Positions 7,766 to 42,778 of a DNA stretch of 64,000 bases are shown here, one piece after another (positions within the stretch are counted from its first letter, which is position 1; each line of letters begins with the position of its first letter). Below the pieces are notes generated by a model. It saw only the letters and a list, made by a program, of their open reading frames with translations. It had not been told where the DNA came from and ran no database searches. Position numbers and translations under genes: made by a program. Origin of the DNA: Actinomycetospora soli (GTDB lineage Bacteria; Actinomycetota; Actinomycetes; Mycobacteriales; Pseudonocardiaceae); NCBI RefSeq assembly GCF_021026295.1, contig NZ_JAJNDA010000013.1:124001-188000 (forward strand), read 5' to 3'.

Positions 7766-7772
7766 GATTCGA

Positions 7773-7778
7773 ACACTA
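7773..7778 (-). promoter_or_regulatory. -10 element TAGTGT, leaderless promoter
   Basis: On the minus strand TAGTGT is followed by seven bases and the ATG at 7765, with no ribosome site. Confidence 0.45.
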
Positions 7779-7851
7779 GTACGAGGGTCCGACAGTCACG
7801 CTTCGTCGCGAAGGACGCGGCTCGACCCTCCGCGAGACGCCGCCGTCGGGA

Positions 7852-24861: not shown

Positions 24862-25039
24862 GATCTGCACTCCCACACCTGAACACGAGCCCCGCCGCCG
24901 TCGCCCCACCCGGGGAGGACCCGGTCCTCGACAGTGGCTCCCGGAACCGGCGTCCGGGGGCTTCGATCGAAGACCGGTCACGTCACCAGGTGGGAAGGCG
25001 CGGGACTCGCCAGTCCGTTCCCTCTGGAGGAACCCACCC

Positions 25040-27315
25040 ATGGCGAACTCCGCCACCCCGGCCGTCGTCGACACCGAGACCGGTGTCCACGAGACCACCG
25101 CCGTCCTCGACAACGGCACGTTCGGCAGCCGCACGATCCGCTTCGAGTCGGGCCGGTTGGCCCGCCAGGCGGCCGGCGCCGTCGTCGCGTACCTCGACGA
25201 GGAGACGATGCTCCTCTCGGCGACCACCGCGTCGAAGCGGCCGAAGGACAACTTCGACTTCTTCCCGCTGACCGTGGACGTCGAGGAGCGGATGTACGCG
25301 GTCGGGCGCATCCCCGGCTCGTTCTTCCGCCGCGAGGGCCGCCCGTCGACCGACGCGATCCTCACCTGCCGCCTCATCGACCGCCCGCTGCGCCCGACGT
25401 TCGCCGCGAACCTGCGCAACGAGGTCCAGGTCGTCGTCACGGTCCAGAGCCTGGACCCGAACGACCCCTACGACGTGCTGGCGATCAACGCCGCGTCGGC
25501 CTCCACCCAGATCTCCGGCCTGCCCTTCGAGGGCCCGGTCGGCGCCACCCGCGTCGCCCTGATCAACGGGCAGTGGGTCGCGTTCCCGACGTGGGAGCAG
25601 CTCGAGCACGCCGTGTTCGACATGGTGATCGCGGGCTCGATCACCTCCGACGGCAGCGACGTCGCGATCTCCATGGTCGAGGCGGAGGCGACCGACAAGG
25701 CCGTCTCGCTCGTCGCGGGCGGCGCCCAGGCGCCCACCGAGGAGATCGTGGCCGCCGGCATGGAGGCCGCGAAGCCGTTCCTGCGCACGCTGTGCGAGGC
25801 GCAGCAGAACCTCTACACCTCGCTCGGGGTGGCCACGAAGGACTACCCGACCTTCCCGCCGTACCAGTCCGACGTCCTCGACGCCGTGACCTCCGCCGCC
25901 GGCGACGAGCTCGACAAGGCGCTCGCGATCTCCGGCAAGCAGGAGCGCGACGCCGCCCAGGACGCGGTCAAGGAGCGTCTGGTCACCGAGCTCGCCCCGA
26001 AGTTCGAGGGCCGCGAGAAGGAGATCGGCGAGGCGTTCCGGTCGCTGACCAAGTCGACCGTCCGCAAGAAGATTCTCACCGAGGGCTTCCGCATCGACGG
26101 CCGCGGCGTCACCGACATCCGCCCGCTGGCCGCCGAGGTCGAGGTCATCCCGCGGGCCCACGGCTCGGCCCTGTTCGAGCGCGGCGAGACGCAGATCCTC
26201 GGCGTCACCACGCTGAACATGCTGCGCATGGAGCAGTCGATCGACTCCCTCACCCCGGAGACGACGAAGCGCTACATGCACCACTACAACTTCCCGCCGT
26301 TCTCCACCGGCGAGACCGGGCGCGTCGGCTCCCCGAAGCGCCGCGAGATCGGGCACGGCGCGCTCGCCGAGCGCGCGCTGGTGCCGGTCCTGCCGACCCG
26401 CGAGGAGTTCCCCTACGCGATCCGGCAGGTCTCCGAGGCCCTCGGCTCCAACGGCTCGACGTCGATGGGCTCGGTCTGCGCCTCGACGATGTCGCTGCTC
26501 AACGCCGGTGTGCCGCTGAAGGCGCCGGTCGCGGGCATCGCGATGGGCCTGGTCTCCGGCGAGGTCGACGGCAAGGACACCTTCGTCGCGCTGACCGACA
26601 TCCTCGGCGCCGAGGACGCGTTCGGGGACATGGACTTCAAGGTCGCCGGCACCAAGGACTTCGTGACGGCGCTGCAGCTGGACACGAAGCTCGACGGCAT
26701 CCCCTCCGAGGTCCTGGCCAAGGCCCTCACCCAGGCCCGCGGCGCCCGCCTCGCGATCCTCGACGTCATGGCCGAGGCCATCGACTCGCCGGACGAGATG
26801 AGCGAGTTCGCCCCGCGCATCACCACGGTGAAGGTCCCGGTCGACAAGATCGGCGAGGTCATCGGCCCGAAGGGCAAGATGATCAACTCGATCACCGAGG
26901 AGACCGGCGCCGACATCTCCATCGAGGACGACGGCACGATCTACGTCGGTGCGGCCGACGGGCCCAGCGCCCAGGCGGCGGTCGACAAGATCAACGCCAT
27001 CGCCAACCCGCAGATGCCGAAGATCGGCGAGCGCTACCTCGGCACCGTCGTCAAGACGGCCGCCTTCGGCGCGTTCGTGTCGCTGGTGCCCGGCCGCGAC
27101 GGCCTGGTCCACATCTCGAAGCTCGGTGGCGGCAAGCGGATCGGCAAGGTCGAGGACGTCGTGAACGTCGGCGACAAGATCCGCGTCGAGATCACCGACA
27201 TCGACAACCGCGGCAAGATCAGCCTGCTCCCGGTCAAGGAGGAGGACGCCTCGAACGGCACCGCGCCCGAGGCGACCGACTCCGCCGACGAGAAGGCCAC
27301 CGCGGAGGCGTCCTC

Positions 27316-27319
<4 letters not shown>
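25040..27319 (+). CDS. pnp: Polyribonucleotide nucleotidyltransferase (PNPase)
   Basis: A 759-residue trimeric 3'-5' phosphorolytic exoribonuclease. Two RNase-PH domains flank a helical domain, then a KH domain ([17 protein letters not shown] near 613) and an S1 domain ([26 protein letters not shown]). Active-site segments such as [19 protein letters not shown] are intact. CTGGAGG lies nine bases before the ATG. The 178-base leader from the terminator has a perfect palindrome CTTCGATCGAAG (24961-24972) and little else. The last 25 residues are acidic and poorly conserved. Confidence 0.97.
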
Positions 27320-33211: not shown

Positions 33212-33369
33212 CCGCGCGGCTACCCACCCGCCGCGTCCGGTCACGCGCCCGCGTCGCCGACGCCACGGAGCAGGAGAACCGCCGTTTGCGCGGCCCGGCC
33301 GGTCGGGGAGCACACCGGAGTCGGTCCGCGGGGAACCGCCGGACCGCGCCTGCGACGAGGAGGACTCGG

Positions 33370-34545
33370 GTGTCGGACGAGCAGCGCAAGGTCGGTGTGG
33401 CCGTGGTCGGGGTCGGGGGCGCGGTCGCCACCACGGCCATCGCGGGGGTCGAGCTGCTGAAGGTCGGGGCGTGCGGCCACGAGGGCCTGCCGTTCGCGGA
33501 CGTGACCTCGCTGGTGCCCTACACCTCGCTGGTGTTCGGGGGCTGGGACCTCGACGGGGACGACCTCGCGAAGGCCGCCCACCTGCACGGCGTGCTCGAG
33601 CCGCGCGTGGTCGAGGCCGCCGGCGCGGGCCTCGCGGCCGTGGCGCCGTGGCCCGCCGTCGCGGACCCGGACTACTGCCGCAACGCGATCGGGGCGAACG
33701 TCATCCCGATCTCGACGCTGCGCGGGCGGGTCGACCACATCCGCAGCGACATCGAGCGCTTCCGCACCGAGCACGACCTCGACCGCGTCGTCGTCGTGAA
33801 CCTCGCGTCCACCGAGCGGTGGCCGGACCTGACGCTGCCGTCGCTGCAGACCCCGGAGGCGTTCGAGTCGGCGCTCGACGCGGACGACCCGGTGATCAGC
33901 CCGAGCATGATCTACGCCTACGCGGCGATCACCTCGGACTCGCCGTACGTGAACTTCACGCCGAGCGCGTCGGCGGACATCCCCGCCCTGCTCGAGCTGG
34001 CCCTCGAGCGCGGTGTCCCCGTGTCGGGCAAGGACGGCAAGACCGGCCAGACGATGATGAAGACGGTCCTCGCCCCGGCGTTCCGGTCGCGGTCGCTGCA
34101 CGTCGACGGCTGGTACTCCACCAACATCCTCGGCAACCGCGACGGCCAGATCCTCGAGGACGCCGACTCGCTGTCGAGCAAGCTGCAGACCAAGGGCACG
34201 GTCCTCGACCAGTGCCTCGGCTACGAGGTCGAGGACCACATCGTCCGGATCGACTACTACCGGCCGCGCGGGGACCAGAAGGAGGCCTGGGACAACATCG
34301 ACCTGACCGGCTTCCTCGGGCAGAAGATGCAGGTCAAGGTGGACTTCCTGTGCCGGGACTCGATCCTGGCCGCGCCGCTGGTGCTCGAGCTCGCGCGCAT
34401 GGTCGACGAGGCCGCCCGCCGCGGCGAGGGCGGTGCGCAGGAGCAGCTCGGCTACTTCTTCAAGCAGCCCATCACCCGCGACGGCTCCGAGCCCGAGCAC
34501 GCGCTCTACCGCCAGGAGCAGGTGCTGCGCGACTGGCTCGCGTGA
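33370..34545 (+). CDS. Inositol-3-phosphate synthase family protein
   Basis: A 391-residue homologue of myo-inositol-3-phosphate synthase, which converts glucose 6-phosphate to inositol 3-phosphate with bound NAD. It has GVAVVGVGGAVATT (NAD loop), NVIPISTLRG, SPSMIYAYAAI and the active-site strand SGKDGKTGQTMMKTVLAP with its Lys residues, then DGWYSTNILGNRDG. It differs from the short mycobacterial Ino1 type, so it is probably a second, pathway-specific paralogue. GTG at 33370 follows GAGGAGG. First gene of a nine-gene overlapping operon; its stop overlaps the next start. Confidence 0.88.
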   Translation: MSDEQRKVGVAVVGVGGAVATTAIAGVELLKVGACGHEGLPFADVTSLVPYTSLVFGGWDLDGDDLAKAAHLHGVLEPRVVEAAGAGLAAVAPWPAVADPDYCRNAIGANVIPISTLRGRVDHIRSDIERFRTEHDLDRVVVVNLASTERWPDLTLPSLQTPEAFESALDADDPVISPSMIYAYAAITSDSPYVNFTPSASADIPALLELALERGVPVSGKDGKTGQTMMKTVLAPAFRSRSLHVDGWYSTNILGNRDGQILEDADSLSSKLQTKGTVLDQCLGYEVEDHIVRIDYYRPRGDQKEAWDNIDLTGFLGQKMQVKVDFLCRDSILAAPLVLELARMVDEAARRGEGGAQEQLGYFFKQPITRDGSEPEHALYRQEQVLRDWLA

Positions 34546-35444
34546 TGGTCACCGCCGGTCCCGGCGAGCTCGTCGGGACGTTCCGGGAGATCGGCGACCT
34601 GAAGCGCGTGCACGTCGCCGGCCGCCCCGGCTCCCTTGCCGACCAGGCCTTCCTGCGCGCCTGGTCGGCGCTGGTCGCGGGGGCGGACCCCACGACGGTG
34701 GCCGAGGCGGAGTGCGCCGCCGCGGTCGCCGGGGCCCGCCTCGCCGGCCTCGACGGCGCGGTCCTGCGCGACGCCGGGCTCACCGACGACGAGGCGCGGG
34801 CCGTCCGGGCCCGGGCCGTCGCGGAGGTCGGCGCCGTCCTTCCCGCCGAGCTCCGGGCCCGGCTCACGAACGCGCCCGACCCGGTCGGCGACCCGCTGAC
34901 CGCCCCGCCCTTCGCGGTCACCCTCGTCGACCAGCCGCGGGCCGGGGCGACCGCTCCCGGCCGGCCCCGCCTGATCGTCGAGCCCCCGGAGGACCACGGC
35001 GAGCACTGCTGGGCGGTCGCGGTGTACGGCGCGCTGCTCGCCCCGGGCTACGGCGCGGACCTCGGCGAGGCGTTCCTGCTCGGGCTCGCCCACCACCTGC
35101 ACAACGTCGCGCTGCCCGACGCCGGGTTCGCCGGCGAGATCCTGCTCGGCGACCACCTCGACGGCGTGCTCGAGCGGCTCACCGAGCGCGAGCTCGCGGC
35201 GCTGCCCCCGCTGCTCGCCGACCGCCTGCGGCTGCTCCTCGCCGCGCGCACCGACGCCGACACCCCGCTCGGGCGCGCCTTCCACGCCGCCGACGTGCTC
35301 GACCGGGTGCTGCAGGTCCACCACCACGCGCGGGCCGCCGCGTTCACCGCCGCCGACGCGCTCGTCGACCTGGAGCTGGTGCACGTCTCGCCGGTCTCGG
35401 CCTTCCACGACGCCGTGCTCACCGAGGCGGGGCTGGCACCGTGA
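34545..35444 (+). CDS. HD-like alpha-helical protein, putative metal-dependent hydrolase or oxygenase
   Basis: A 299-residue helical protein. The pattern of His residues (EHCW near 150, GLAHHLHNVALPDAG near 180, FHAADVLDRVLQVHHHARAA near 245) looks like an HD-superfamily metal site. The classical HD doublet is not intact, so the assignment is inference. Known HD proteins include phosphohydrolases and diiron oxygenases such as myo-inositol oxygenase. Beside an inositol-phosphate synthase, either dephosphorylation or oxidation of the cyclitol is conceivable. Start is ATG 34545 (TGATG overlap) or GTG 34542 (GTGA overlap). Confidence 0.5.
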   Translation: MVTAGPGELVGTFREIGDLKRVHVAGRPGSLADQAFLRAWSALVAGADPTTVAEAECAAAVAGARLAGLDGAVLRDAGLTDDEARAVRARAVAEVGAVLPAELRARLTNAPDPVGDPLTAPPFAVTLVDQPRAGATAPGRPRLIVEPPEDHGEHCWAVAVYGALLAPGYGADLGEAFLLGLAHHLHNVALPDAGFAGEILLGDHLDGVLERLTERELAALPPLLADRLRLLLAARTDADTPLGRAFHAADVLDRVLQVHHHARAAAFTAADALVDLELVHVSPVSAFHDAVLTEAGLAP

Positions 35445-36577
35445 CGCTCCTCGACCCGCAATCGCGTCGCCCGCTGGTGGCGGACACCGTGCACTCGCTG
35501 TCCGACGGCGAGCGACGCCGGCCCGTCCTCGACGGCATCCCCTACCTGCGGACCGGCCGCGACGAGCTCGCGGCCGAGGCCCTGGCCGCCCTCGACGACG
35601 GCCGCGTGGCCGACGCCGCGGCCGTGCTGCTCGCCGACAACGACGACTGGTGGGACCAGCCGCCCCCGCCGCCCGAGCGGCTCGCCGCCGTCCACGCGGC
35701 GGCCGCCGACCCCACGACGACGCTGCGGGACGCGGCCGCCGCGCTCGGGCTCGGACGGGTCGGCGACTACTTCCTGCACCGCGACCACGACCCGTCGGGA
35801 CTCGCGGTGACGGCGCTCGTCGCCACCCACCCGCCCGCGGGCCGCGAGGTCGTCGACCTCGCGTGCGGTGCGGGACACCTGCTGCGCCGCCTCGTCCTCG
35901 AGCCGGGGGAGTGCGCCGGCGCCACCGGGATCGACATCGTCTTCGCCAAGCTGTGGCTCGCCCGCCGCTTCGTGCTGCCGGCCGACGCCGACGTCCGCCT
36001 GGTCTGCGCCGACCTCCGCTCGCCCTGGCCCCTGACGACCACCGGCGACGCCTGGGTCTCCTGCCACGACACCCTCTACTTCCTCGACGAGCCCGCGGAC
36101 GTCCTGCACCGCGCCGCGGACCTGGCGGGCCCCGGCGGTGCGGTGCTCGCCGCGCACTGCCACAACGCCGACCACCCGCTGGGGGCCGCCGGCCGTCCGC
36201 GCCGCCCGGCCGAGTGGGCGGCGATGCTGCCCGACGCGCGCACGTACACCGAGGAGGAGCTCACCCGCGCCGCGCTGGACGCCCGGCCCGCGCGACCCGC
36301 CGTCGGGACCGACCTCGACGCCACCGAGGCCGTGGCCCTGGCCCTCGACCGGGCCGCCGTGCCGCCGCGCCCGGCGCTGCTCGGGCCGTCGCCGGGCGCG
36401 GAGCTGCACCGCAACCCGCTCTACCGCGACGGCGTGCGGCACTGGCCGAACGCGCGGTGGGGCGCCGAGTACGGCGACCGGGTCGCGGACTACCTGCCCG
36501 AGCACGTGCCCGCCGACCTCGACCGCGAGCAGGCCGTGCGCCGCCGGGTCCTCGTCGAGCTGCCGACGCGATGGTGA
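35441..36577 (+). CDS. SAM-dependent methyltransferase with Trm112-like head
   Basis: A 378-residue class I methyltransferase. Residues 1-40 resemble the small Trm112p-like domain often fused to such enzymes (HSLSDGERRRPVLDGIPYL) but without its zinc cysteines. After a helical linker the SAM site VVDLACGAGHLLRRL begins near 138, with GIDIVFAKLWLARR and the CADLRSPWP acidic loop. A C-terminal part of about 100 residues has no match I know. GTG at 35441 shares GTGA with the HD-like gene stop. The acceptor is unknown; within the operon an O- or N-methylation of the inositol product is inferred. Confidence 0.8.
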   Translation: MTLLDPQSRRPLVADTVHSLSDGERRRPVLDGIPYLRTGRDELAAEALAALDDGRVADAAAVLLADNDDWWDQPPPPPERLAAVHAAAADPTTTLRDAAAALGLGRVGDYFLHRDHDPSGLAVTALVATHPPAGREVVDLACGAGHLLRRLVLEPGECAGATGIDIVFAKLWLARRFVLPADADVRLVCADLRSPWPLTTTGDAWVSCHDTLYFLDEPADVLHRAADLAGPGGAVLAAHCHNADHPLGAAGRPRRPAEWAAMLPDARTYTEEELTRAALDARPARPAVGTDLDATEAVALALDRAAVPPRPALLGPSPGAELHRNPLYRDGVRHWPNARWGAEYGDRVADYLPEHVPADLDREQAVRRRVLVELPTRW

Positions 36578-37575
36578 GCACCCGGTGGGGTGTCGTCGGG
36601 CTCGGCTGGGTGGCCCGCGACCACGTGCTCCCCGCGATCGCCGCCGACCCGCGGGCGCGGCTCGTCGGCGTCTGCGACCGCGACCCGGCCGCGCTCGACG
36701 GCCTGCCCGGGGACGTCGTCGCCACCACCGACCTCGACGTGCTGCTCGGGGAGCGGCCCGACGCGGTCTACGTGGCCACCCCCAACCACGCCCACCTGCC
36801 GGTGGTCCGCGCGGTCGCCGGGGCCGGCGTCCCGGTGCTGTGCGAGAAGCCGATGGCGCACACCCGGGAGGACGCGGGCGCCATGGTGGACGCCGCCGGT
36901 GAGGTGCTCGTGGCGACGGCGTTCGACCAGCGGTTCCACCCCGCCCACCGCCGGATCGCGGCGCTGGTCGCCGACGGTCGCGTCGGCACCGTGACGGCCG
37001 TCCGGATCGTCTACGGCTGCTGGCTGCCGCCGGCGTGGACCCCGCCGCACAGCCGCGCCGACACCAACTGGCGCGTCGACACCGCCCTGGCCGGCGGCGG
37101 CGCGGCGATCGACCTGGCGCCGCACGGCCTCGACCTCGCGGGCACCCTGCTCGGTGAGGACGTCACGAGCCTCACCGCCGTGACCCGCCGTCGGGTGCAC
37201 CCCTACGCCGACCCGGCGGCCGACGACGGCGCCGTGCTCGTGGGCGCCACCGCCACCGGCACGCTGTTCAGCGCCCACGTCAGCTTCGCCCTGCCCGACG
37301 CCCTGCCACGCCGGCGCCTCGAGGTCGTCGGCACCCGCGGGCAGCTGGTCGCCGAGGACACGCTCGGCCAGGTCGCGGGCGGGGCGCTGACGTTCCTCGA
37401 CGCCGCCACCGGCGACGCCGAGGTGATCGCGTTCGACTCCGACGGCCCCTTCGAGCGCCAGGTCGCGGCGTTCGGCGCCGCCGTGCGCGGCGAGGTGGCC
37501 TGGCCCTACCCGCTCGCCCGCGACCTCGCCCTCCACGACCTGCTCCTGACCGCCCTGGAGGCACCGTGCCCCTGA
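36571..37575 (+). CDS. Gfo/Idh/MocA-family oxidoreductase
   Basis: A 334-residue NAD(P)-dependent dehydrogenase of the glucose-fructose oxidoreductase/inositol dehydrogenase family. The Rossmann part starts RWGVVGLGWVARDHVLPAIA. The catalytic Lys is in CEKPMAHT near 92, and GGGAAIDLAPHGLDL gives the Asp-His pair near 180. Family members oxidise inositols, sugars and sugar nucleotides. Next to an inositol-phosphate synthase, oxidation of an inositol or glycosyl-inositol to a ketone is the simplest inference. ATG 36571 overlaps the methyltransferase stop by seven bases. Confidence 0.88.
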   Translation: MVSTRWGVVGLGWVARDHVLPAIAADPRARLVGVCDRDPAALDGLPGDVVATTDLDVLLGERPDAVYVATPNHAHLPVVRAVAGAGVPVLCEKPMAHTREDAGAMVDAAGEVLVATAFDQRFHPAHRRIAALVADGRVGTVTAVRIVYGCWLPPAWTPPHSRADTNWRVDTALAGGGAAIDLAPHGLDLAGTLLGEDVTSLTAVTRRRVHPYADPAADDGAVLVGATATGTLFSAHVSFALPDALPRRRLEVVGTRGQLVAEDTLGQVAGGALTFLDAATGDAEVIAFDSDGPFERQVAAFGAAVRGEVAWPYPLARDLALHDLLLTALEAPCP

Positions 37576-38396
37576 GCCCCTGGACCTGCACCAACTGCGG
37601 ACACTGGCAGCGCTGGTTCGCCACGCCCCCGGCCTGCCCGGTGTGCGTCGACGTCCGCAACGCCCTGCCCGACGACGGCTGGGACTTCCGGCCGCTGACG
37701 GAGATCGCCCGCGGCCGCGAGGCGCGCTGGGCCGAGGTGCGCCCCGGCATCACGGGGTTCTGGTGCGAGCCGCAGGTGGGGCTGGGCACGTGCGGCTGGG
37801 TCATCGAGACCGAGGCCGGTCTGATCGGCTGGGAGGGCGCGGGCTTCTACCCCGACGACGGGCTCGCCGAGATCCGCCGTCGCGGCGGCCTGGCGGCGCT
37901 CGCGGCGAGCCACGTCCACGGCTACGGCGCGCTGTTCCAGCTGCAGGACGCGCTCGACCCGCCGGTCCTGGCGATCGGGGTGCGCGACCTGGAGTGGACG
38001 AAGGCCTTCCGGGTCACCTGGCCCCTCGACGACCGCCACGAGTTCGCGCCCGGCCTCGTCGCCCACCGCACCGGCGGGCACTTCGACGGCCACATGGTCC
38101 TGCACGACGAGCGGCGCCGGGTCCTGTTCTGCGGCGACATGCTCAAGGCCGCGCTCGACGACGAGGGCCGCGCGACGGGGCTCTCCGCCCACAAGGCCTA
38201 CCACGCCCAGATCCCGCTCTCCCACCAGGAGATCCGGGACGCGTACAAGGTCATCGGCAACCTCGAGTTCGACGCCGTCGCCACGCCGTTCGAGTTCGTC
38301 GAGGGCGTCACCACCGCCCACGTGCTCGCGCTCTACGACCGTCTGCTGTCCGCGCAGCCGGTCGCCGGGCCGATCCCGCTGGCGGAGCTCTCGTGA
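37566..38396 (+). CDS. Zinc-ribbon plus metallo-beta-lactamase-fold protein
   Basis: A 276-residue two-domain protein. Residues 7-27 form a zinc ribbon (CTNCG ... CPVC). From about 55 a metallo-beta-lactamase fold follows, with GTCGWVIETEAGLIGWEG, SHVHGYGALFQL in place of the usual HxHxDH, HFDGHMVLHDE, and FCGDMLK. Several metal ligands of hydrolytic members are therefore missing or moved, so it may be a redox, scaffold or altered hydrolase. GTG at 37566 overlaps the Gfo/Idh end by ten bases. It directly precedes the YcaO gene, a likely partner. Confidence 0.75.
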   Translation: MPLSPWTCTNCGHWQRWFATPPACPVCVDVRNALPDDGWDFRPLTEIARGREARWAEVRPGITGFWCEPQVGLGTCGWVIETEAGLIGWEGAGFYPDDGLAEIRRRGGLAALAASHVHGYGALFQLQDALDPPVLAIGVRDLEWTKAFRVTWPLDDRHEFAPGLVAHRTGGHFDGHMVLHDERRRVLFCGDMLKAALDDEGRATGLSAHKAYHAQIPLSHQEIRDAYKVIGNLEFDAVATPFEFVEGVTTAHVLALYDRLLSAQPVAGPIPLAELS

Positions 38397-39922
38397 GCGT
38401 GCTCGACGCCCTGGACGCCACGGCCCGCGACTACACCGCGGCGCTGCCCCCGGGGGAGACCGACGAGATCGAGCTCCGGGAGGCCGACCGCACCGGGGTC
38501 CACGTGGTCGCCGCCGACTTCGCCGACCCCACCGGCGAGTGGCCGCGGTCGGGCTCGTTCGGCTACGGCCTGTCCGTCGAGCGCGCCCGGGTCGCGGCCC
38601 GCGCAGAGCTCGCCGAGGAGATGCTGCTCTCCCGGCACCTGCGGACCCTGACACGCACCCGCGACTCCTGGACCGCGCTGCGCGCCCGGTACGGCGACGA
38701 CGGCGTGGTCGACCCGCTCCGCCTGACGCTGCCGGCGGGCGGCACCTATGACCCCGACGCCGAGCGCTGGTGGCTCCCCGCCACCCGCGTGCGCACGGGG
38801 GAGACCGTCCTGGTGCCGGCCGAGTTCGCGGCCGCGTACCCCGTCGACCTGCCGTGGCAGGACCCGGCCGAGCGGCTCACCACCGTCATCACCAACGGCT
38901 GCGGCGCCGGCGACACCGTCGAGCGCGCCCTCGCGCACGCCCTCGGCGAGCTCCTCCAGCGCGACGGCAACAGCACCGCGTTCCGGGCCCTCGACCGCGG
39001 GATCGTCCTCGACACCGGGCCCGACGACGGGTTCGTGGCCGACCCGGACACCCGGGCGCTGCTCGCGCACCTGCGCTCGGTCGGGATCCGGGTCGTGCCG
39101 AAGCTCGCCACCACCGCCTTCGGCGTCACCGACCTGCACGTCGTCGGCCACGACGTGGCGGGGGACCCGCCGCACCCGATCGCCCTGACGGCCTGCGGGG
39201 AGGCCGCGCACCCCGACCGCGAGGTCGCCCTGCAGAAGGCGCTGCTCGAGTTCTGCTCCGCGCGGGTGCGCAAGACCTTCGCCCACGCCGCCCTCGACAC
39301 CGTCCGGCCGCTGGCGCCGACGAGCTACTGGGACCGCGAGCTCGCCCAGCCGCTGCCCGCGCAGGAGGCCCGCGCCTTCACCACCATGCAGGACTGGACC
39401 GCCCGCGGCGCCGACGAGCTGCGCGGCCTGCTCGAGCCCGTGCTCGCCGAGCACACGCGGATGCGCTTCGACGAGCTGCCCACCACCGCGGTCGGCGAGC
39501 CCGTCGCCCTCCTCGACGACCTCATGGGGCGGCTGCGGGAGTTCGACGTGCTCGCGGTCCTCGCCGACCGGGACGGCGCGTGTGCGGTCAAGGTGATCGT
39601 GCCCGGGCTCGAGGTCGAGACGATGTCCTACGGCCGGATCGGGCGCCGCGGCGTCGACCGGCTGCTCGACCGGGCGGCCGACCCGCACGACCCGGCGTTC
39701 GGCCTCGTCGGGCTGGGCGCCCCGCCGTCGCCCGGGGCGCGGCCGGTGCTCCTGCCCGACGACGAGGCGGCGCGCCTCGGCGACGAGCGTGGCGACGACC
39801 GCGCCTGGCTCGACCGCGACCGCGTCGACCGGGTGGTCGGCGACCTCTACCCCCTCTACCGCGAACCGACCCGGCACGCCGTCGCCCGGGTCGCCGCGGG
39901 CGAGGAGGTGGAGCTGCGATGA
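38393..39922 (+). CDS. Stand-alone YcaO-domain protein
   Basis: A 509-residue YcaO protein. The family activates amide backbones with ATP to make azolines, thioamides or amidines. Recognisable are GYGLSVERARVAARAELAEEML (near 58), NGCGAGDTVERALAHALGELLQRD (near 170), the ATP/Mg region VALQKALLEFCSARVRK (near 278) and the late VIVPGLEVE. No E1-like or TfuA partner and no RiPP precursor or protease is nearby. The substrate may thus be a small molecule, not a peptide; this is inference. GTG 38393 shares GTGA with the previous stop, and the next ATG overlaps its own stop. Confidence 0.85.
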   Translation: MSVLDALDATARDYTAALPPGETDEIELREADRTGVHVVAADFADPTGEWPRSGSFGYGLSVERARVAARAELAEEMLLSRHLRTLTRTRDSWTALRARYGDDGVVDPLRLTLPAGGTYDPDAERWWLPATRVRTGETVLVPAEFAAAYPVDLPWQDPAERLTTVITNGCGAGDTVERALAHALGELLQRDGNSTAFRALDRGIVLDTGPDDGFVADPDTRALLAHLRSVGIRVVPKLATTAFGVTDLHVVGHDVAGDPPHPIALTACGEAAHPDREVALQKALLEFCSARVRKTFAHAALDTVRPLAPTSYWDRELAQPLPAQEARAFTTMQDWTARGADELRGLLEPVLAEHTRMRFDELPTTAVGEPVALLDDLMGRLREFDVLAVLADRDGACAVKVIVPGLEVETMSYGRIGRRGVDRLLDRAADPHDPAFGLVGLGAPPSPGARPVLLPDDEAARLGDERGDDRAWLDRDRVDRVVGDLYPLYREPTRHAVARVAAGEEVELR

Positions 39923-40755
39923 GCCTGCGCTGGGCCTACAACACGAACGGCCTGTCGTCGCACCGGCTCGACGACGCCCTCGCGCTGCTCGCCGACCACG
40001 GCTACGCCGGCGTCGCGCTGACCCTCGACGTCGCCCACCACGACCCCTTCGCCCCCGAGCTCGCGCGCCGCACCGCGGCCCTGGCCGACCGGCTCCGGGG
40101 ACTCGGGCTGTGCAGCGTCGTCGAGACCGGTGCCCGGTTCCTGCTCGACCCGCGGCGCAAGCACCACCCGACACTCGTCAGCGCCGAGCCGGCCGACCGG
40201 ACCCGCCGCGTCGCGTTCCTGCGGCTGTGCGTCGACGTCGCGGCCGACCTCGGGAGCGAGGCCGTCTCGTTCTGGGCCGGTGTGCTCGCCGCCGGGCTCG
40301 ACCGCGACGAGGCGTGGAAACAGCTGGTGCACGGGGTCGCCGCCGTCACCGAGTACGCCCGAGGCCGGGGCGTGACGGTCGCGGTCGAGCCGGAGCCCGG
40401 CATGCTCGTCGACGACCTCGACGACTGGTCCGCGCTGCAGGCCGAGGTGCCGGGCATCGCGCTCGCGCTCGACACCGGGCACTGCATCGTGTCCGGGCGC
40501 TGGGACCCCGCCGACGCGGTCCGGGCGTTCGCCCCGCAGCTCGGGGCGGTCGCCGTCGAGGACATGCCGCGCGGCGTCCACGACCACCGCGCCCCCGGCG
40601 AGGGGGACATGGACCTCGGCGCGGTCGTCGCGGCGCTCGGCGCGGTGGGGCACGACGGGCTGGTCAGCCTCGAGCTCTCCCGCGACTCCCACCGCGCCGA
40701 CCGGCTCGTGCCGGAGGCCATCGCGACGCTGCGCGCCCTGGAGGACGCCCGATGA
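39919..40755 (+). CDS. TIM-barrel sugar phosphate isomerase/epimerase
   Basis: A 278-residue member of the xylose-isomerase-like TIM barrel family (IolE/IolI, EboE and relatives). The pattern YNTNGLSSHRLDDALALLADHGYAGVAL opens the barrel. Metal ligands probably include the Glu of VAVEPEPGM, Asp-His in LALDTGHC, His in GVHDHRAPGEGDMD, and the late Glu in SLELS. Members epimerise or dehydrate keto-inositols and sugars, which suits a product of the Gfo/Idh enzyme. ATG 39919 overlaps the YcaO stop (ATGA). Confidence 0.85.
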   Translation: MSLRWAYNTNGLSSHRLDDALALLADHGYAGVALTLDVAHHDPFAPELARRTAALADRLRGLGLCSVVETGARFLLDPRRKHHPTLVSAEPADRTRRVAFLRLCVDVAADLGSEAVSFWAGVLAAGLDRDEAWKQLVHGVAAVTEYARGRGVTVAVEPEPGMLVDDLDDWSALQAEVPGIALALDTGHCIVSGRWDPADAVRAFAPQLGAVAVEDMPRGVHDHRAPGEGDMDLGAVVAALGAVGHDGLVSLELSRDSHRADRLVPEAIATLRALEDAR

Positions 40756-41996
40756 GGATCTGTTTCGTCTCGCGCCGCTACTGGCCCGCGGTGTCGGGCA
40801 TGAGCGCCTACGCGGAGAACCTGCTGCGCCACCTGGTGCGGGCGGGCCACGACGTCACGATGATCTCGCAGTACCGCGGCGACCCGGCCGGACGCGCGGT
40901 GTACGGCGGCGGCCCCCCGCCGCCCGAGCGCGTCCCCGCAGGCGTCGAGGTGGTGGCGCTGGAGGCCCACGGCGAGCAGGAGGTCGTCGCGGGCCGGCCC
41001 GCCGCGTTCGAGGCCGACGTCGCGACGATGCAGGCCACGATCGCCCGCCTGCACGCGCAGCGGCCGTTCGACGTGCTGCACGCCCAGTACGCCTACCCCA
41101 ACGGGCTGGCGGTGCTGCGGGCCGCGCACGGTCTCGGGCTGCCCGCGGTGGTCAGCGTGCAGGGCGGCGACGGCCACTGGGTCGGCACCTGCTGCGACAC
41201 CCACCGCGACCTCGTCCGCGCGGTGTTCACGCACGCCCCGGCGCTGGTGATCGGGTCGCCGTCGTTCGCCGCGGAGGTGTCGGCCCGGCACGACGTCGAC
41301 CCGGCCCGCTGGACGATCGTCTCCGGCGCCACCGACACCGAGCGCTTCACCCCGGCGCACGAGCCGGGGGCCCTGCGCGAGCCCCCGACGCTGCTCTACC
41401 ACGGTCGCGTCGACGCCCGGAAGGGCGTGCTCGACCTGCTCGAGGCGCACCGCACCCTGCTCGACGGCGGGCGCGACGTCCGCCTCGTCGTCTCCGGGAT
41501 CGGGCCGGACACCGCCCTCGTCGCGGAGCGGGTCACCGAGCTGGGCCTGGACGACCACGTGTCCCAGCTCGGCTACACGCCCTACGAGCGGGCCCACGAG
41601 GTGTACGGGCTCGGCGACGTCTTCGTCAGCCCCACCTACGCCGAGGGCTTCTCCAACACCATCCTCGAGGCGATGGCCTCCGGCCTGCCCGTGGTGTCCA
41701 CCGACGTGGTCGGGGTCCGCGACTGCGTCCGCCCGGACGACAACGGTGTCCTCGTCCCGGCCAAGGACCCCGCGGCCCTCGCGGCCGGGATCGCGCGGGT
41801 GCTCGACGACGGGTCCCTGCGGCGGGCCATGGCCGCCCGTGCCCTCGACGAGGTGCGGGCGGTGTGGTCCTGGCCGGTGATCGCCGACCGGGTCACCGAC
41901 GTGTACGACACGGTCCGCGACGTCCCCGTGCCCGCGATCCCCGACCCGCCCGTGGACCCGTCCTGCCGGTTCCGCGCGGCGCCCCACCTCCTGTGA
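40752..41996 (+). CDS. GT4-family glycosyltransferase (MshA-like fold)
   Basis: A 414-residue retaining glycosyltransferase of the GT-B fold. N-terminal FVSRRYWPAVSGMSAYAENLLRHLVRAGHDV is the acceptor-domain glycine loop. The C-terminal part has LLYHGRVDARKGVLDLLEA and the EGFSNTILEAMASGLPVV E-x7-E motif near 297. MshA of mycothiol synthesis (GlcNAc transfer to inositol phosphate) is of the same family, and this gene is followed by a PIG-L deacetylase. Transfer of an amino sugar to the inositol unit is inferred. Donor and acceptor cannot be read from sequence. ATG 40752 overlaps the previous stop. Confidence 0.87.
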   Translation: MRICFVSRRYWPAVSGMSAYAENLLRHLVRAGHDVTMISQYRGDPAGRAVYGGGPPPPERVPAGVEVVALEAHGEQEVVAGRPAAFEADVATMQATIARLHAQRPFDVLHAQYAYPNGLAVLRAAHGLGLPAVVSVQGGDGHWVGTCCDTHRDLVRAVFTHAPALVIGSPSFAAEVSARHDVDPARWTIVSGATDTERFTPAHEPGALREPPTLLYHGRVDARKGVLDLLEAHRTLLDGGRDVRLVVSGIGPDTALVAERVTELGLDDHVSQLGYTPYERAHEVYGLGDVFVSPTYAEGFSNTILEAMASGLPVVSTDVVGVRDCVRPDDNGVLVPAKDPAALAAGIARVLDDGSLRRAMAARALDEVRAVWSWPVIADRVTDVYDTVRDVPVPAIPDPPVDPSCRFRAAPHLL

Positions 41997-42778
41997 CGCG
42001 GGTCGTGGCGGTCAGCCCGCACCTCGACGACGCCGTGTTCTCGGTGGGCGGCACCCTGGCGCGGCTCGCGGGATCGTCGGACGTCACCGGGGTCACCGTC
42101 GTCACCTGCTTCACCGGCTCGGTCGACCCCGCGGTGGCGACCCCGTTCGCCCTGTCGACCCAGCTCGACAAGGGCCTGGCCGCGGACGTCGACTACATGG
42201 CGCTGCGCCGCACGGAGGACCGCGACGCGCTCGACGTCCTCGGCGCGGCGCCGCGGCACCTGGGCCTGCTCGAGGCGCCCCACCGCGGGTACGACTCGGC
42301 CGCGGCGCTGTTCGCGGGCCGGCGCGGGGGCGACGTCGTGGCGCGCCCGCTCACCGAGGCCCTGGCCCCGGTGCTCGCGGGTGCCGACCTCGTGCTCGCC
42401 CCGCAGGCCCTCGGCGACCACGTCGACCACCAGTGGGTGTCGGCGGTCGTGGCCGGGCTCGTCGATCCCGCGCGCTGCGGCTGGTGGCGCGACACCCCCT
42501 ACGTCGCGCGCCGCCCCGACGCGACGCCGATGGACCACGTGACGGGGCGGGAGGTCGCCGTCGACGTCACCGGCGAGCTGGACCGCAAGGCCGCCGCGGT
42601 CGCCTGCTACCGCACCCAGGTGCCGTTCCAGTTCGGGTCGGCCGACGCCGCCGGCCCGGCCCTCGAGGCCCTGGCCCGGGACGAGGCCGCGCGGACCGGG
42701 ACGGGGACCGCGGTGGAGGCACTGCGGGTCGGCCCGCGCGCGGGCGGGGTGCTGGCCGCGCTGCTCGGGGCGTCCTGA
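41993..42778 (+). CDS. PIG-L/LmbE-family deacetylase
   Basis: A 261-residue zinc amidase of the PIG-L family (MshB, BshB). SPHLDDAVFSVGG near 8-20 gives H10, the base D12 and ligand D13; GDHVDHQW near 142-149 gives the remaining His ligands. The family usually removes acetyl from GlcNAc bound to inositol or another acceptor. This is the last gene of the nine-gene operon; GTG 41993 shares GTGA with the glycosyltransferase stop. Together with the previous gene it parallels the MshA-MshB step, though no MshC or MshD homologue is present. Confidence 0.87.
   Translation: MTRVVAVSPHLDDAVFSVGGTLARLAGSSDVTGVTVVTCFTGSVDPAVATPFALSTQLDKGLAADVDYMALRRTEDRDALDVLGAAPRHLGLLEAPHRGYDSAAALFAGRRGGDVVARPLTEALAPVLAGADLVLAPQALGDHVDHQWVSAVVAGLVDPARCGWWRDTPYVARRPDATPMDHVTGREVAVDVTGELDRKAAAVACYRTQVPFQFGSADAAGPALEALARDEAARTGTGTAVEALRVGPRAGGVLAALLGAS

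Follow-up and report, generated by a model that had tools for sequence, protein, structure and literature searches.

Our analysis of a 64,000-nucleotide stretch of the Actinomycetospora soli genome (hereafter, the window) revealed what is almost certainly a real and conserved biosynthetic operon that is as yet unexplained. Tentatively, we propose that its product is a hexosaminyl-cyclitol, small and polar, whose enolone or enamine core absorbs UV; it would be finished by a YcaO enzyme that acts on a small molecule, and it would serve in UV protection. Even without a UV role, a nine-gene pathway that is conserved across phyla and lacks a described product marks a clear gap in our picture of bacterial metabolism.

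Gene content and cohesion of the operon

As the first-pass annotation had described, nine genes run in one direction across positions 33370-42778, and they belong to the families that it had named (Table 1). The overlaps, present at eight of eight junctions, measure 4-10 bases.

Table 1. Genes of the operon, with their coordinates in the window and the matches that name them
Gene product	Position	Strand	Match
INO, inositol-phosphate synthase, dedicated second copy	33370..34545	+	PF07994 1.7e-63, PF01658 4.7e-33
HD-fold protein (HD)	34542..35444	+	HD_3 below cut-off; predicted structure resembles HD phosphohydrolases
Class I methyltransferase	35441..36577	+	PF13649 3.8e-8
Gfo/Idh/MocA oxidoreductase (Gfo/Idh)	36571..37575	+	PF01408, PF22725
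MBL-fold protein with CxxC...CxxC start (MBL)	37566..38396	+	
YcaO	38393..39922	+	PF02624 2.5e-44, sole Pfam family
TIM-barrel isomerase or dehydratase, IolE/epimerase kind (TIM)	39919..40755	+	PF01261 8e-35
GT4 glycosyltransferase (GT4)	40752..41996	+	PF00534 3.4e-35
PIG-L type deacetylase (PIG-L)	41993..42778	+	PF02585 3.6e-13

Solved relatives give these assignments further shape. The best for INO is the inositol-3-phosphate synthase 7nwr (4.9e-87); those of Gfo/Idh include anhydrofructose reductase and inositol dehydrogenases, and those of GT4 include BshA and MshA. For the TIM-barrel protein, the epimerase UlaE (1.1e-11) and IolE (1.8e-11) tie, and it could be an epimerase instead of a dehydratase. 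From its predicted fold, the HD protein is probably a phosphatase: HD phosphohydrolases came out on top in VIA-align, and MIOX was missing among the matches listed, although the protein may yet be a MIOX-like oxygenase. The methyltransferase is missing in some relatives (e.g., L019, L063, L078, L085, L090, and L093).

Mycothiol biosynthesis likewise draws on an inositol-phosphate synthase, a GT4 glycosyltransferase, and a PIG-L deacetylase, but the operon's three counterparts fall far under the corresponding NCBIfam cut-offs: INO reached 38.9 of 638 bits on the mycothiol INO1 model, GT4 82.4 of 462.5 bits on MshA, and PIG-L 18.9 of 224.35 bits on MshB. The same genome holds another INO on contig C22, together with MshA at 630.8 bits and MshB at 244.4 bits. 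Because INO1, MshA, and MshB are thus present elsewhere, the operon is not one for mycothiol; duplicate mycothiol genes were rejected on both counts, and the view that the pathway is a dedicated one stands.

The nine families also appear to belong together, as their pairwise divergences correlate at r 0.71-0.96 with species kinship ignored. Of 18 Actinomycetospora genomes, 12 carry YcaO, and it is exactly these that carry HD. GT4 is present in all but one of the 12, and that one genome is 84% complete. In one sub-group of the genus, TIM, GT4, and PIG-L do not follow YcaO. GT4 lies approximately 16 kb off on the same strand in G005, G009, G011, and G012, and approximately 15 kb separate YcaO from TIM in G011, the sole genome of the split sub-group that was read through. 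Regulator, chaperonin, dehydrogenase, and putative propane-monooxygenase genes, named by eye, lie in that interval (L147, 6128-11549).

Spread across phyla and exchange of the ring-forming enzymes

A scan of genome contigs yielded 234 confirmed YcaO relatives, and the best 80 of these, a choice biased towards this YcaO, were examined together with four plasmid loci. In 48 of the resulting 84 loci, HD, GT4, and PIG-L are accompanied by INO or by another ring enzyme in its stead, and the gene order is mostly that of the window. HD, GT4, and PIG-L occur together in 55 loci: 45 with INO and TIM; three that have a sugar phosphate cyclase but lack TIM; four with TIM and no ring enzyme seen, among them L061, which starts at HD, and L075, which has only a piece of HD; and three, from Kineococcus, with neither. 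Two of the latter (L043 and L047) carry a divergent TIM-like gene on the opposite strand, and the third (L049) starts near HD. A further 10 loci combine HD with at most one of GT4 and PIG-L, namely, seven from Actinomycetospora, two cut by contig ends (L051 and L086), and L052, in which INO, HD, and the methyltransferase run off the contig. Of the 19 loci without HD, 14 are stand-alone YcaO genes and four are partial operons that a contig end cuts short; the remaining one, L094, holds just PIG-L and YcaO.

Among these best 80 of 234 and four plasmid loci, those with HD come from eight phyla: Actinomycetota, Pseudomonadota, Bacteroidota, Myxococcota, Chloroflexota, Planctomycetota, Verrucomicrobiota, and Armatimonadota. 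An actinobacterial framing of the operon was therefore too narrow. In a sample of Actinomycetota, scored at six candidates per genome, HD was found in 7 of 396 genomes, these being the present genome and six of one family. Such near-constant gene content over eight phyla would be unusual for an antibiotic, and this argues against a kasugamycin-like aminocyclitol, be it antibiotic or signal, whose amidine YcaO would make. An inositol-derived ring, an amino sugar, and a methyltransferase are typical of such compounds, but the nine genes include neither a resistance gene nor an exporter, UV-repair genes neighbor the operon (see below), and we consider this alternative improbable.

The plasmid search placed loci in Roseomonas, Hymenobacter, and Methylobacterium, and two HD queries returned the same four records as the four best matches of YcaO. 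The Roseomonas locus retains all nine genes in the same order; in Hymenobacter, no methyltransferase was found and Gfo/Idh and GT4 are in two frames, and no MBL was found at the loci of two Methylobacterium replicons. Locus L020 lies on replicon NZ_AP014705 of the laboratory strain Methylobacterium aquaticum 22A. This self-contained operon has probably been spread by gene transfer. Splits of Gfo/Idh, GT4, or PIG-L over two frames were seen in L019 (12844-13826 and 17086-18323) and L044 (8003-8973 and 13574-14281), which may reflect decay or sequencing error.

In L048, L078, and L085, from metagenome-assembled genomes (MAGs) of Isosphaeraceae, Verrucomicrobia, and Armatimonadetes, respectively, the gene before HD encodes a cyclase of the dehydroquinate-synthase superfamily (483-549 bits on NF004852, cut-off 333, a model that covers EboD), whose solved relatives include dehydroquinate synthases and the valiolone synthase ValA. 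All three loci lack both INO and TIM. No INO was found in the L078 and L085 assemblies, one at 39% identity is present in that of L048, and each of the three holds one more gene of the cyclase family, at 31-34%, which is presumably AroB. Since INO and TIM are replaced together, the two routes look interchangeable, with INO, Gfo/Idh, and an IolE-like dehydratase seeming to reach the same kind of ring as the cyclase and Gfo/Idh. In the tree, the L048 cyclase does not join those of L078 and L085, but its position is without support, and the exchange may have happened once or twice. The earlier description of the pathway as inositol-derived was too narrow, because a cyclase takes the place of INO in three loci and the ring need not be inositol. 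In four Kineococcus and two Acetobacteraceae assemblies, neither an operon-type INO nor a cyclase beyond AroB-like matches was found.

UV-repair neighbors and host habitat

Spore-photoproduct-lyase (SPL) family genes flank 6 of the 84 loci. Given the length of the flanks and 1-3 copies per 5.5 Mb genome, 0.2-0.6 would be expected (Poisson chance of six 5e-8 to 3e-5, for a family picked after the fact). The six loci are from Roseomonas, Rubrobacter, Isosphaeraceae (pieces only), two Aureimonas, and Microvirga; the distance of the SPL gene to the operon or YcaO ranges from 214 bases to 8 kb, and in Aureimonas pseudogalii it adjoins YcaO. Relatives of the window's genome within Actinomycetospora carry an SPL gene right behind PIG-L. 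It stands beside GT4-PIG-L in G004, G005, G006, G009, and G011, overlapping PIG-L by 4 bases in the last, and in pieces in G012. In the genome of the window, SPL lies on another contig, and nearer kin likewise keep it elsewhere; further mismatches are G017, with the operon and only a weak SPL relative, and G001 and G010, with SPL and no operon. Five scanned SPL genes score above the TIGR03886 cut-off, and two others fall under that of TIGR04070, leaving the reaction of these two uncertain. In Roseomonas, UvsE lies approximately 10 kb from the operon, and 19 loci have a UDG-superfamily gene close by, of which 16 are from Methylobacteriaceae, 2 from Skermanella, and 1 from elsewhere (three of the genes were checked with Pfam).

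Leaves, air, or lichen are the habitat of many of the hosts; soil myxobacteria and Micromonospora are hosts that are not clearly sun-exposed. Taken by itself, a role of the operon in UV protection seems to us an even call. Many hosts are also known to be desiccation-tolerant, and the MdoH-like glucosyltransferase genes close to 8 loci, together with the GalE-like genes close to 9, would suit a compatible solute or a cell-surface glycoconjugate for desiccation tolerance. We find this quite unlikely, as an ATP-using YcaO, of which L078 and L085 carry two divergent copies each, is hard to fit to a plain glycoconjugate. In Modestobacter sp. Leaf380, YcaO is followed by a bacteriorhodopsin-like gene (L066, 9977-12393).

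The YcaO enzyme and a candidate product

The YcaO retains long invariant motifs in ten relatives. Its best NCBIfam match is SagD-type, at 73.5 of 219.25 bits, a score that does not place it among the TOMM proteins, and its sole solved relative at 1e-5 is MJ1094, the McrA thioamidation enzyme. YcaO proteins are best known from RiPP pathways, and together with the SagD-type match this could suggest a RiPP cluster with an overlooked precursor gene. However, that match is far under the cut-off, Pfam found no RRE among the nine proteins, and the overlaps between genes leave no room inside the operon for a precursor peptide gene, making this reading very improbable; a plain RiPP cluster was rejected on Pfam content and on the SagD-type score.

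With MJ1094 as the nearest solved YcaO, sulfur insertion may be the reaction involved. This would fit a sulfur-bearing redox protectant, in which GT4 and PIG-L, distant kin of MshA/BshA and BshB/MshB, build an amino-sugar cyclitol and YcaO adds sulfur as a thioamide, thione, or azoline, so that the product would act as an antioxidant and not as a UV screen; oxidative damage accompanies UV. We nevertheless regard it as unlikely, given that on the McrA model YcaO scores only 62 bits where 365 are required, that Pfam found neither TfuA, the mark of thioamide systems, nor another sulfur-transfer gene among the nine, and that the ring exchange and the methyltransferase suit an enolone better. The operon differs from McrA-type systems also in that its neighbors act on sugars or cyclitols. 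The azoline, thioamide, or amidine suggested by the first-pass annotation is one set of options among others.

Returning to the enolone product that we tentatively favor, the steps can be set out from the enzyme families. INO would form inositol phosphate and HD would strip the phosphate, after which Gfo/Idh would oxidize the ring and the IolE-like enzyme would dehydrate it to a deoxy-diketo cyclitol. The enol of this compound resembles the core of 4-deoxygadusol, and an equivalent ring would be reached in other lineages by the sugar phosphate cyclase and Gfo/Idh. Where a methyltransferase is present, it may cap the enol, a step also known from the making of gadusol and mycosporines. GT4 would then attach an N-acetylhexosamine, and PIG-L would free its amine. 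Finally, YcaO, using ATP, would activate the vinylogous acid of the ring, so that an amine or sulfur donor could replace oxygen, an activation that ATP-grasp enzymes perform for mycosporines. The scheme assigns no step to MBL.

Gadusol and mycosporine pathways begin with an enzyme of that same sugar phosphate cyclase superfamily, and the parallels with them are several: a cyclitol ring (predicted here), a methyltransferase and an NAD-type oxidoreductase (both found here by Pfam family), an ATP-dependent last step (proposed here for YcaO), and, in three relatives of the operon, a cyclase of the same superfamily. The differences are that the window uses INO, with no DDGS or EEVS cyclase among the nine genes, that the cyclase of L048, L078, and L085 is of another subfamily than DDGS and EEVS, that the nine genes include no ATP-grasp ligase or NRPS-like enzyme, and that GT4, PIG-L, HD, MBL, and YcaO are extra. 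In vertebrates, gadusol is reported to be made by a related cyclase and a methyltransferase-oxidoreductase (PMC4426668). The ebo cluster of cyanobacteria and others, reportedly linked to the sunscreen scytonemin (PMC6282210), also combines a sugar phosphate cyclase with a TIM-barrel enzyme, but in relatives of the operon, the cyclase replaces the TIM gene instead of joining it. The ebo cluster was rejected as a match, as no EboC UbiA-type prenyltransferase is among the nine.

Among the matches listed in searches of the open-access literature that linked YcaO to inositol, to PIG-L or SPL, to Methylobacterium, or to sunscreens and mycosporines, the operon is not described, in line with the earlier claim that no described pathway combines these families. 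UVA-absorbing compounds and methylobamine have been reported from Methylobacterium, and in the same literature we found no biosynthetic pathway reported for them. A bolder and rather doubtful extension of the UV-protection proposal is that the operon makes an undescribed class of UV-A screens, built from inositol or, convergently, via the cyclase, with YcaO activating a carbocyclic vinylogous acid and not a peptide. Such screens could be the source of UV-A-absorbing compounds such as methylobamine, a guess because it is drawn from taxonomy only. If the proposed UV-protective product is right, the operon would represent a second, convergent natural route to a sunscreen core, one that bacteria from leaves, air, lichen, and rock share across several phyla; it would extend YcaO chemistry from peptides to small carbocycles and provide candidate genes for the Methylobacterium compounds. 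Against a UV screen stand the restriction of the ring exchange to three loci, all from MAGs, the missing methyltransferase in several lineages, the imperfect match between SPL and the operon, the Kineococcus and Acetobacteraceae assemblies in which neither ring enzyme was found, the hosts not clearly sun-exposed, and the thioamide made by the nearest solved YcaO.

The stand-alone YcaOs of Aureimonas and Microvirga cluster with those of the Methylobacterium operons, and no HD was found in eight assemblies with a stand-alone YcaO. Were the UV-A screen reading true, bacteria such as Aureimonas, whose stand-alone gene lies next to sugar importers, would be scavengers finishing an imported precursor. 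Sugar-type ABC importer (permease) genes lie near 13 of the 14 stand-alone loci (including L050, L062, L059, and L067), perhaps for precursor uptake. Tandem YcaO genes, two or three in number, were observed in myxobacterial loci (L051, 5178-8144; L055, 275-4812; L057, 5208-8157).

A promoter and terminator scan gave nothing informative, and a LexA-box search found no site upstream of the operon. One LexA-box-like site with a single mismatch lies at 7769-7784, and at up to two mismatches the window holds 7, against a mean of 2.8 in shuffles. Before the operon, a block at 33284-33310 (GTTT, 17 bases, GGGG) is kept in four of five aligned Actinomycetospora upstream regions and resembles, with low confidence, the consensus of a general-stress sigma promoter. 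An ordinary Actino-pnp RNA (24920-24978, plus strand, 53.8 bits) lies just 5' of the PNPase gene at 25040-27319.
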